DNA of 64,000 bases from Cryoendolithus antarcticus (Eukaryota > Ascomycota > Dothideomycetes > Cladosporiales > Cladosporiaceae). Shown here in pieces: positions 6,901 through 11,012 of this stretch (position 1 is its first letter; each line of letters opens with the position of its first letter). The stretch spans positions 581,001-645,000 of the forward strand of contig NAJO01000011.1 of assembly GCA_002077065.1 (NCBI GenBank), read 5' to 3'. Position numbers and translations under genes: made by a program. The notes below the pieces were generated by a model. That model ran no database searches and was not told the DNA's origin. It worked only from the letters and a program-made list of their open reading frames with translations.

Positions 6901-9900
6901 AGATCAGATCATTTCCACCGCCGTGCCCGAGTCGCAAGATCCTGAGAAGGTCTCGATTGCTGTCAAGGCTTTCATCGATGCTGACATGCCAGTGGAGCTC
7001 ATCGAGCTGCTCGAGAAGATCATCCTTGAGCCTTCCACATTCAGTGACAACGCCAATCTCCAGAATCTGCTCATGTTGACTGCTTGCAAGTCAGACCGCG
7101 GTCGTGTGGCGAACTACATTCAGCAGCTCAATGCCTACAGTCCAGAAGACATTGCGCAACAGTGCGTTGAGGTCGGCATGTTCGAGGAGGCGTTCCTCAT
7201 CCACAAGAAGGCTGGTGACCACCTCTCTGCTGCAAATGTGCTCGTCGACCATGTCGTGAGCATCGACCGTGCACAGGAATATGCCGACCAAGTGGACCTC
7301 CCCGAAGTCTGGAGCAAGGTCGGCAAAGCCCAACTCGACGGTCTTCGCGTTTCAGACTCCATCGAATCCTACATCAAAGCCCAAGATCCCTCCAACAATC
7401 TCGAAGTCATCGAGACTGCCACCCACGCCGGCAAGGACGAAGACCTCATCAAGTACCTCCGCATGTCCCGCAAGACCCTCCGCGAGCCAGCCATCGACAC
7501 CGCACTCGCCTTCGCTTTTGCCCGTACAAATCAGCTCCCCGAGCTCGAGGAGTTTCTCCGCTCTGCCAACGTCGCCAACATCGAGGAGTCTGGCGACAAG
7601 GCCTACGCTGAAGGCTACCATGAGGCTGCTAAGCTCTTCTTCACATCCATCTCGAACTGGGCTAAGTTGGCAACCACCCTTGTGCACCTGGAGGATTATC
7701 AAGGTGCCGTTGAGTGTGCAAGGAAGGCGAACAGTGTCAAGGTGTGGAAGCAGGTCAACGAGACTTGTGTGGCGAAGAAGGAATTCAAGCTGGCGCAGAT
7801 CTGTGGGTTGAATTTGATTGTGCATGCTGAGGAGTTGGCGGATCTGGTGAAGCAGTATGAGAGGAATGGGTACTTTGATGAGTTGATTCAGTTGCTTGAG
7901 GCTGGTTTGGGACTTGGTACGTACCCCCCTCCCCTTTCGTATGTATGCCCCTTCCTTTCGACCCGGTCAAAAGAGCGCCTTCCTGGCGTGATCGGCACGC
8001 GTGATCGGCATGAACGATGGATATGAGGGAAGGCACCCAGGCTGGGAGGAAGGAACTGAAGGCAGCTATGCTGGCACACTTCGGACTCGACTTGCATCTG
8101 CTTCGTTGTTCTTCTGGCACACATCACACATTCATCAAAGCCATCGAGGAACGTCACAATCACACACGCAGACGAAACGAGGACCACACCAGGACACGAG
8201 GGAACCACACCGCCGCCATGAGCTCCGCTCACGAGTACGCTCTCTGGCTTTGCTGGGGCCTGATCACTCTCTGCACACCTGCACTACAAAACCCGGTGCA
8301 CAAGATGGTGATCACGAGCGAACAAGTTATGCAAGCGGCTATGTCAGCTGTCGTCTTTGCTCCAGGTCTTTTGGACGTCCTCCAAGGCTCTGTACCTCCC
8401 ACTCTCGCTTTCTTCAAGGGCTTGTCGGCAGATATCCGTGGCAACTATGGCGTCTACGTCCAGGTGATGGAGAAGACAGGCTGTCGCCCTCGTATCTTCA
8501 TCGGATCCGGTACTGGTAGGCACGGTGTTGCATCACGGTTCCTACACTACGAGAAAGGCAGTGATCGTTTGCCCGTATATGTCCAGTCGTCATTCCAGGA
8601 GGGCTTCTCCATTACCCACTCAGGTCTGCTCTGCTGGAGTCCCATTCCTGATCCCGAGGCTCGATTCGCCCTCCGCTCGCTCTTCCTCATTCTGGAATGC
8701 GTCCTGTCTCTCGCCTGCTGGACCATGCACTCACGTACCAAGACTTACGGCATGCCCAATTTTGTGTCCTGGCCTCTGACAGACTTCGAGTACGACGGTC
8801 TATGCCACCACTCATGCATCAGTGAACATGTGTGGGGCGAGGACGAAGGCCTCACCGAGGAACAGATCGCTGCGAAGCTCGTTGTCGCCGAGGAACGACG
8901 CAAGGAACAGGACAAAGCGGCACGACAGAAGTACTACGCCAAACGCAACGCAACAGACGCAGAGTACTGGCGCAAGCGCCGCAACACACAGAAGAGAGCC
9001 AGCGTCAACAAGATCCTCGACGCAAAGACCCACTGGTGCGAGCCCTGTCAGCAGCCTTTTCAGTCCAAGGGCGCGCTGGCGATTCACTTGACCAGAGAGG
9101 TACACAAGCGGGGCGTCCGGCTTGCCAAGCAGAGGGGGATGATGTCCAAGTGGACGTCGTCCAACTAGACCACACCGCCGCCACGCCTTACCAGAACATG
9201 ATCACGCCAGGACAGCACATACCCCCCTAATTTGACCGGGTCGATTTCATTGCACACACGATACTAATGACCAGCACTGACGCGTACTAGAACGGGTACA
9301 CATGGGTATCTTTTCAGAATTAGGAATTGCGTTAAGCAAATACCACCCCGACAGAGTGATGGAGCACCTGCGGATATTCTGGGGCAGAATAAATATCCCC
9401 AAGATGCTGAAGGCTTGCGAAGAGGCACACTTGTGGCCAGAGCTGGTCTTCCTGTACCAGCACTACGACGAGTTCGACAACGCCGCTCTCGCCATGATGG
9501 AGCGCGCATCGGATGCATGGGAGCACCACACTTTCAAGGACACTGTTGTGAAGGTGGCCAACCTGGAGATTTACTACCGCGCACTGAACTTCTACTTACA
9601 GGAGCAGCCATCACTCATCACTGACCTCCTGCAAGCACTCACGCCACGCATCGACGTCAACCGCGTGGTGCGCATGTTCGAGAAGTCCGACAACATTCCC
9701 CTCATCAAGCCTTTCCTGCAAGCCGTGCAGCCGCAAAACAAGCGCGCTGTCAACGATTCCATCAACGACCTGCTAATCGAAGAGGAGGACTACAAGACCC
9801 TTCGCGACAGCGTAGAGCAGTACGACAACTACGAGGCCGTCGCTCTTGCTCAGCGTCTCGAGAAGCACGACCTTGTCTTCTTCCGCCAGATCGCCGCTAG

Positions 9901-10424
9901 CATCTACCGCAAGAACAAGCGCTGGGAGAAGTCCATCGCGCTGTCGAAGCAAGACAAGCTGTACAAAGATGCGATCGAGACGGCTGCCATCTCCTCTCGG
10001 CAGGAGACTGTTGTCGAGCTGCTGAACTACGTACGTCCCCAATCACACCCGCTTGAGCCTTGCACCTCACTGACATGCGTCTCAGTTCGTCGACATCGGC
10101 AGCAAAGAATGCTACGTCGGCATGCTCTACTCTTGCTACGAACTCATCCCCCTCCACACTGTCATGGAGCTTTCCTGGCGCCACAACCTCACGGACTTCA
10201 CCATGCCCTTCATGATCAACTTCATGTCGCAGCAAGCTGCCACGATCGAGGAGCTGAAGCGCGACAACGAGGCGCGGAAGGAGCGGGAGAAGAGCGAACG
10301 CAAGGAGGAGGAGACTGGGCCGATTCTTGGGGGATCAAGGTTGATGTTGACGCAGGGGGGTGTGCAGCCGCAGCCTACGGGAGGGTATGGGGGTATGAAT
10401 GGTGGGTTTGGGGGGTTTAGGTGA
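3903..10424 (+). CDS. CHC1: Clathrin heavy chain
   Basis: Complete clathrin heavy chain, the triskelion leg of coated vesicles at the Golgi, endosomes and plasma membrane. Exons are 3903-3962, 4037-7916, 9291-10030 and 10086-10424, summing to 5019 nt (1672 residues), the usual family length. The start MAALPIKFQEKFNLTSAGIL joins in phase 0 to PASIGFNSCTLESDHFVCVRQ, matching the conserved N-terminal propeller. The middle is the clathrin heavy chain repeat solenoid. The junction over intron 2 restores the conserved LLEAGLGLER...HMGIF...ELGI. The C-terminus is glycine-rich and ends GGFGGFR, near the trimerisation and light-chain region. Introns 1 (74 nt) and 3 (55 nt) are normal, but intron 2 (7917-9290) is 1374 nt and contains a mobile-element-like insertion with its own ORF on the same strand. 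Donor GTACGT, branch TACTAAT (9262-9268) and acceptor TAG of this intron are intact. Confidence 0.96.
7958..7993 (+). repeat. Left composite terminal inverted repeat
   Basis: Outer block 7958-7971 and inner block 7981-7993, separated by 9 nt, each perfectly complementary to a block at the right end (9231-9244 and 9200-9212). Immediately inside, the 12-mer GCGTGATCGGCA occurs twice (7986-7997 and 7999-8010) with a 13-nt period, overlapping the inner block. This could be a binding site for the encoded zinc-finger protein (inference). Confidence 0.75.
8218..9168 (+). CDS. GIY-YIG nuclease-like protein with C-terminal C2H2 zinc finger, intron-encoded
   Basis: Intron-free ORF of 316 residues nested in clathrin intron 2, same strand as the host gene. 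I chose ATG 8218 because of its near-ideal context (GCCGCCATGA); the frame is open from 8017. Residues 74-114 form a GIY-YIG core: GVY at 78-80, then RIFIGSGT (FIG at 94-96 in the YIG place), followed by R107 in GVASRFLHYE, the position of the catalytic arginine. E160 in FLILECVLS is a good candidate for the metal-binding glutamate. Residues 212-266 are lysine/arginine-rich and helical. C274-x2-C277-x12-H290-x5-H296 is a U1/jaz-like C2H2 finger near the C-terminus. The combination of nuclease and DNA- or RNA-binding module resembles homing endonucleases. Absence of stops over 950 nt and retention of all key residues argue for selection. It could be expressed from the excised intron or from its own promoter in the 8000-8217 leader (inference). 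Confidence 0.8.
   Translation: MSSAHEYALWLCWGLITLCTPALQNPVHKMVITSEQVMQAAMSAVVFAPGLLDVLQGSVPPTLAFFKGLSADIRGNYGVYVQVMEKTGCRPRIFIGSGTGRHGVASRFLHYEKGSDRLPVYVQSSFQEGFSITHSGLLCWSPIPDPEARFALRSLFLILECVLSLACWTMHSRTKTYGMPNFVSWPLTDFEYDGLCHHSCISEHVWGEDEGLTEEQIAAKLVVAEERRKEQDKAARQKYYAKRNATDAEYWRKRRNTQKRASVNKILDAKTHWCEPCQQPFQSKGALAIHLTREVHKRGVRLAKQRGMMSKWTSSN
9200..9244 (-). repeat. Right composite terminal inverted repeat
   Basis: Inner block 9200-9212 and outer block 9231-9244 are exact inverted copies of the blocks at 7981-7993 and 7958-7971. The spacer is 18 nt, twice the left spacer; the extra length contains the 9-mer TACCCCCCT that also occurs upstream of the left end at 7922-7930. Confidence 0.75.
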
Positions 10425-11012
10425 GGAGCCAGTACATGATTCGCGGGTTTGTGGGGTGGGGATGCATGGAGCGCTTTGGGGGGCGTCGTGTATTTGTACA
10501 TCACGTATCGAGTGTTACCGTAATCACCAATTTTCAGTGCGATATGACCGACCAGCGTCCTTGTTCACTTGATCCAAGTGCACTGCGGCGTGAGAGTCAC
10601 TATCCATTGCAGCGTGGATGACCATTTGGGGATGAATGCGTGAGGCACGGGTGTAGGATCGGTGGAGTATGTCATCACTGTACTGGGAGTCCAAGGCCTT
10701 GTCTGTGTCCGACGCACTTTCGCCTCCCTTGCTTTGTTGCACTGACAGCAAGCCAAAGATTGAACTGGGTAGCGGATATGACGGCAAACCTGATTCAACA
10801 ATGTATTCGTACCCATGCTATGGAAGGAATACTACGTCGATTCTTCAATGATGTGCAAGATCAAGCGCCAAATGCGAACTGTGACAACTGGTCGATCCCA
10901 GATTTGAGGAGGACCTATCATACACACATGCGCAACTAGGTCCTAGTCTTACGTACCTGGCTCTCACGTTCTCTCTGCGGGACACCGTCTTTCTAGGCGA
11001 TGCATCTTTACC
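10425..11012. other. Intergenic between clathrin and the RING gene (convergent)
   Basis: About 590 bases holding the two 3' regions of convergent genes. Short open frames exist but none resembles a known family or has convincing splice sites. Confidence 0.45.

Follow-up and report, generated by a model that had tools for sequence, protein, structure and literature searches.

In a 64,000-nucleotide (nt) stretch of the Cryoendolithus antarcticus genome (contig NAJO01000011.1, positions 581,001 to 645,000; hereafter the window), the clathrin heavy-chain gene contains a spliceosomal GT-AG intron (7917..9290, forward strand, phase 1) that carries an open reading frame (ORF) for a GIY-YIG-like nuclease with a zinc finger and is missing from the second clathrin copy of the genome. 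We consider it quite likely that the fungus carries here, in its nuclear genome, a spliceosomal homing intron. Once expressed, the intron-encoded GIY-YIG zinc-finger nuclease would cut a host-gene copy without the intron-ORF (the other gene copy of the duplicated genome, or alleles in other strains), repair off the occupied copy would transfer the intron with its ORF, plus part of the adjoining exon, to the cleaved gene, and the spliceosome would take the intron out of the mRNA, thus sparing the host gene. A sequence-only reading of the window had described a 1374-nt intron hosting a complete 316-aa nuclease ORF with the architecture of a homing element; the intron and its ORF proved to be real, and the homing architecture gained support from the predicted fold, eight further genomic copies and the intronless second clathrin copy. 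A fold other than GIY-YIG, or the same ORF at a conserved position in all relatives with neither an empty allele nor other copies, had been named there as grounds for abandoning the idea; the predicted fold is GIY-YIG-like, and an empty second copy as well as other copies were found.

The nuclease ORF (8218..9168, forward strand, as are the parts that follow) encodes a protein whose predicted structure contains a beta-beta-alpha-beta-alpha core resembling I-TevI/UvrC. The domain core (residues 75-165, 8440..8712; GVY 78-80, FIG 94-96, R107, Y111, E160) is connected by a predicted long helix (residues 214-268, 8857..9021) to a C-terminal C2H2 finger (residues 272-297, 9031..9108; C274, C277, H290, H296). 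Among seven aligned copies of the family described below, the catalytic Arg and Glu are each present in 7/7, the GIY Tyr in 5/7 and the YIG Tyr in 6/7. Membership of this putative nuclease in the GIY-YIG superfamily is based on the modelled fold and these residues; a Pfam search (eight rows) gave no GIY-YIG model among the matches listed (best 25 of 31 families), and the PF01541 profile run over the genome matched only two other genes, L062 (C62:327385) and L063 (C1:1616952). The latter two GIY-YIG genes are perhaps a homologous pair of host genes.

A protein search of the kind suggested by the earlier reading, for copies inside or outside introns, yielded a family of nine loci, which were returned identically by each of three member queries (~28-45% identity in the main matches). 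One of the three queries added a weak match at C62:614505-614756 (E 0.006, finger part of the eEF1A-intron protein only) and also matched debris inside the eEF1A intron. Seven of the nine copies reside in introns of conserved housekeeping genes, all on the host sense strand: clathrin (window), pyruvate carboxylase (PYC, L010), HSP70 (L013, read as BiP), ATP synthase beta (ATPb, L014), eEF1A (L015), PEPCK (L016) and carbamoyl-phosphate synthase (CPS, L017). Since each host gene holds just one copy, no target-preference statistic like that of the mirusvirus paper (PMC12768974) can be derived. As for the two non-intronic copies, L011 is antisense, and its counterpart position in the second copy (L073) is the middle of a gene that we read as transporter-like (three pieces were without a Pfam match); L012 lies upstream of an alcohol dehydrogenase, with 1815 nt there vs. 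871 nt of other sequence in the second copy (L074). Relatives were found neither in viral contigs scanned with three single members nor in genome contigs scanned with one, these scans being sensitive to close relatives only.

The proteins of the family diverged under selection for function: codon positions 1 and 2 are more conserved than position 3 (~0.27-0.41 identity) in 21/21 pairs. In a tree from which the frameshifted PEPCK and CPS copies were excluded, leaving seven copies, the pairs eEF1A+ATPb, clathrin+PYC and C84+C24 are supported, and the terminal branches have a median of 0.83 changes per column. The PYC (C13:568.8 kb) and clathrin (C13:589.2 kb) copies, sisters in this tree at ~40% identity, are only 20 kb apart.

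A second gene copy on another contig was found for 8/8 genes tested (the seven hosts and aconitase), so to say a genome that behaves as duplicated or hybrid; two-subgenome assemblies of such type are described for Hortaea werneckii (PMC5952469). The ORF is absent from the second host-gene copy in 7/7 cases and the whole intron in four of them (clathrin, HSP70, eEF1A and PEPCK), where the exons are continuous across the insertion point with no gap. The other three second copies have a short ORF-less intron (79 nt in PYC, 56 nt in CPS, 53 nt in ATPb), positioned, relative to the ORF intron, at the same place in PYC, 1 nt off in CPS and 4 nt off in ATPb. The occupied ATPb copy has an extra GC-AG intron not found in the other copy and is without the other copy's intron, a pattern reminiscent of the exchange of an entire segment. 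An alternative explanation is that the ORF introns are ancestral, the second copies having lost the ORF (three genes) or the entire intron (four genes). The deep divergence of the copies, pointing to an old family, and the short introns still present in three second copies are compatible with such loss; however, three more distant HSP70 paralogues also match across the site without an intron (as judged from match coordinates), and the second PEPCK copy retains a different intron 14 nt away, both of which favour gain of the ORF introns. Loss also does not predict the divergence peak at clathrin described below, and we regard it as very unlikely.

With respect to splicing, intron ends are canonical in 5/7 introns, in eEF1A via a nested intron. 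The window intron has a spliceosomal donor and acceptor, along with a candidate branch site TACTAAT (9262..9268, forward strand) and an alternative candidate CACTGAC (9275-9281). In the eEF1A ORF intron (L015:2435-2500), an ordinary intron of 59 nt interrupts the donor behind its first base, a nested layout (TACTA|G[GTAAAAAATT...TTTCACAG]TAAGCAATACC) that corresponds to a [D1,2] stwintron; no such layout was noticed in the 5' end regions of the remaining six, although no systematic search was made. The canonical signals in five introns also argue against a group I or group II intron in cryptic form that carries an ordinary homing endonuclease. Such introns commonly host GIY-YIG nucleases, but no Rfam match was obtained at E up to 1 in window positions 7000-10600, nor did the eight other loci give any at the gathering level, making this explanation extremely improbable.

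The homing reading was further assessed by comparing the two gene copies for differences within 60 nt of the junction (120 exon positions) vs. beyond, at the seven sites and two control junctions. At clathrin, 36/120 positions differ near the junction vs. 114/1080 beyond (p 4.9e-8). The divergence peak extends from about -126 to +66, covering the 5' exon flank (7791..7916), where the differences from the intronless copy are mostly synonymous, and the 3' exon flank (9291..9356; both forward strand); 40/64 codons differ, 37 of them synonymously. Such a trace is what one would expect of co-conversion from a more distant donor, and recoding of the empty clathrin copy to evade cleavage would look the same. 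The controls gave 12/120 vs. 17/264 for aconitase (9/12 on the 3' side) and 8/120 vs. 84/810 for clathrin intron 3.

Several observations weigh against homing, beginning with the other six sites. No rise near the junction was found for HSP70 (9/120 vs. 21/318), eEF1A (5/120 vs. 7/224) or PEPCK (9/120 vs. 28/265), and the rises at ATPb (13/120 vs. 17/268), CPS (11/120 vs. 34/318) and PYC (16/120 vs. 41/320) are confined to the 3' side (10/13, 10/11 and 14/16 differences, respectively), none being significant over both sides; they are not clearly above the aconitase control. Co-conversion as a general feature of the family was therefore rejected, being clear only at clathrin among the seven sites. 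Inspection of the junctions by eye revealed no common target sequence. The PYC and CPS introns lack an AG at the expected 3' end, i.e., the position demanded by the reading frame (near 4512 in L010 and near 4074 in L017, oriented coordinates), vs. ordinary acceptors in the second copies of these genes. A stop or frameshift is present in the matched stretch of 7/9 copies, only the window and eEF1A copies being without either; the window copy has Phe in place of the YIG Tyr, and the GIY Tyr is gone from two copies. The two non-intronic copies occupy segments that replace, rather than interrupt, the DNA of the second subgenome. Finally, the call of gain vs. loss depends on parsimony.

The damage to the ORFs is uneven. 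A single stop precedes the nuclease domain in the PYC, C84 and ATPb copies (followed by 356, 302 and 338 open codons, respectively), the HSP70 copy has a stop within the finger, and the C24, PEPCK and CPS copies are broken in the domain or at its edge. Decay of an ORF or splice site can be tolerable given a second gene copy. Homing elements cycle through gain, fixation and decay, and the observed pattern fits such a cycle. A separate observation concerns L011, L012 and L014, which share an in-frame TAG at one alignment column, close to where the conserved part begins, with an ATG immediately after it in L011 and L012; shared decay, readthrough and restart are the options.

All seven introns also share a palindrome, TTGACCNGGTCAA, which at <=1 mismatch occurs at 14 sites in their combined 11,326 nt (mean of 0.015 in 200 shuffles), with at least two sites in 6/7 introns and just one in HSP70. 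In the window it is represented by a left motif TTCGACCCGGTCAAA (7957..7971; family form TTTGACCNGGTCAAA) and a right motif TTTGACCGGGTCGAT (9231..9245), neither assigned to a strand, between which lies a second, nested inverted repeat with 13-nt arms (7981..7993 and 9200..9212, forward strand). The palindromes, located ~40-650 nt inward of the intron ends, tend to flank the ORF (<=2 nt from an ATG in PYC, eEF1A and PEPCK, directly after the stop in eEF1A), and some sites are inside it. In HSP70 (L013:2597-2767) and eEF1A (L015:2591-2815), the donor site is followed by debris of an older nuclease ORF, most similar to the ORF of its own intron, and then by the left palindrome, which divides the present ORF from the debris. 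We read the palindrome either as a putative site at which this nuclease family binds or cuts, or as an end of an ORF cassette.

The latter option leads to another explanation, a transposon-like cassette with palindromes as ends and the GIY-YIG protein as transposase, which would either insert into introns or bring splice signals and make introns in an introner-like manner. The distribution of the palindrome over intronic copies and its proximity to ATG and stop codons are in its favour, as are the nested repeat in clathrin and the apparent greater age, relative to the ORF, of the intron in PYC and perhaps also in CPS. However, no target-site duplication was found (end repeats of 0-3 nt at the seven introns; words shared near the ends reach at most 5 nt, in clathrin and ATPb), and the palindromes, lying inside the introns, cannot alone account for the absence of the whole intron from four second copies. 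HSP70 has a single palindrome, and none was found at <=2 mismatches in the stretches scanned for the two non-intronic copies. The copies, moreover, are old and seemingly site-bound rather than recent and numerous. We consider this explanation rather unlikely.

Genome-wide, the palindrome has 44 matches vs. 12 for a reversed control, 11 of the 44 belonging to family copies. None of the 16 sites examined among the other 33 has the ORF by profile; a multicopy recombinase-like ORF accounts for three of them, a gene pair for two and an aconitase intron for one, so that part of the genome-wide excess reflects repetition of coding sequence. The multicopy ORF (L039, L043 and L044), which by our reading resembles a tyrosine recombinase, contains a stretch resembling TTGACCGGGTCAA at a comparable position in the coding sequence. 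Within the 54-nt aconitase intron (L045:1476-1529), which has no ORF, lies a single exact TTTTGACCGGGTCAAAA palindrome, and the intron may be a target of the past or of the future; in the second copy of aconitase this intron is also present, but with TTTTGACGAGTTCAAAAG, so the motif may have arisen through point changes, as opposed to being an excision scar or empty site. Pairing of palindromes as a general pre-mRNA clamp shortening the intron was rejected: upon folding of six introns, clathrin shows pairing (12.9 of 13 expected pairs) and ATPb partial pairing (6.7), whereas eEF1A, PEPCK, CPS and PYC show none (0.0). A further repeat in the window is the tandem pair GCGTGATCGGCA (7986..8011, reverse strand), a TGCCGATCAC doublet read on the opposite strand; this doublet is common to 3/7 introns (clathrin, ATPb and PYC), in inverse orientation in the window.

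The origin of new spliceosomal introns is a long-standing question. Nuclease-bearing introns of housekeeping genes, set against empty copies of the same genes, suggest that ordinary introns are able to spread in the manner of selfish DNA. A broader proposition, which we hold to be evenly balanced, is that whole spliceosomal introns, splice sites included, act as autonomous homing elements in a cellular nuclear genome, each with its own site-bound GIY-YIG zinc-finger nuclease, entering intronless housekeeping sites via double-strand-break repair and leaving an ordinary short intron after ORF decay, i.e., a direct route of intron gain. If true, this would provide an intron-gain mechanism without transposition, as well as a possible virus-host exchange to seek; with occupied and empty gene copies side by side in a single fungus, intron homing would become accessible to laboratory experiments (crossing or transformation, then induction, with the appearance of an intron as the readout).

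Among known systems, introners are transposon-derived introns and likewise involve the presence or absence of the entire intron at individual sites, whereas the fungal family is without end duplication, consists of copies only ~28-45% alike and carries a nuclease gene. Group I introns with GIY-YIG homing endonucleases of the I-TevI type are similar in nuclease fold, conserved host genes, empty vs. filled sites and, at clathrin, in divergence resembling co-conversion; unlike them, the fungal introns have no ribozyme match and would rely on the spliceosome for removal. Ascomycete introner families are reported as outliers without end repeats (PMC12403724), and the missing duplication alone is thus not decisive in a fungus. 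The eEF1A intron, split after its first donor base, resembles the [D1,2] stwintrons of fungi described in the same paper, whose main text does not contain the words homing or endonuclease (PMC12403724).

The closest parallel is provided by Mirusviricota. Homing introns were linked to self-splicing RNA until a November 2025 report of 334 endonuclease genes (132 of them GIY-YIG) in mirusvirus spliceosomal introns, named shintrons, for which homing by recombination was proposed; according to the authors, eukaryotes and other viruses apparently lack equivalents (PMC12768974). In line with that statement, no cellular equivalent was found among the literature matches listed. Of the undescribed mobile system anticipated by the sequence-only reading, the part concerning spliceosomal homing introns as such was therefore already described in mirusviruses, while their occurrence in a cellular nuclear genome, in housekeeping genes and with empty sites alongside, appears to be new. 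The fungal family has the structural features of shintrons, i.e., an endonuclease gene in a spliceosomal intron, canonical splice sites (two introns being without AG), no group I/II signature and a preference for conserved core genes (PMC12768974). Shintrons belong to virus genomes, mostly to virion genes, whereas the fungal family occupies housekeeping genes of a cellular nuclear genome and is further set apart by its C2H2 finger, by the palindrome that its introns share and by the empty second copies within the same genome.
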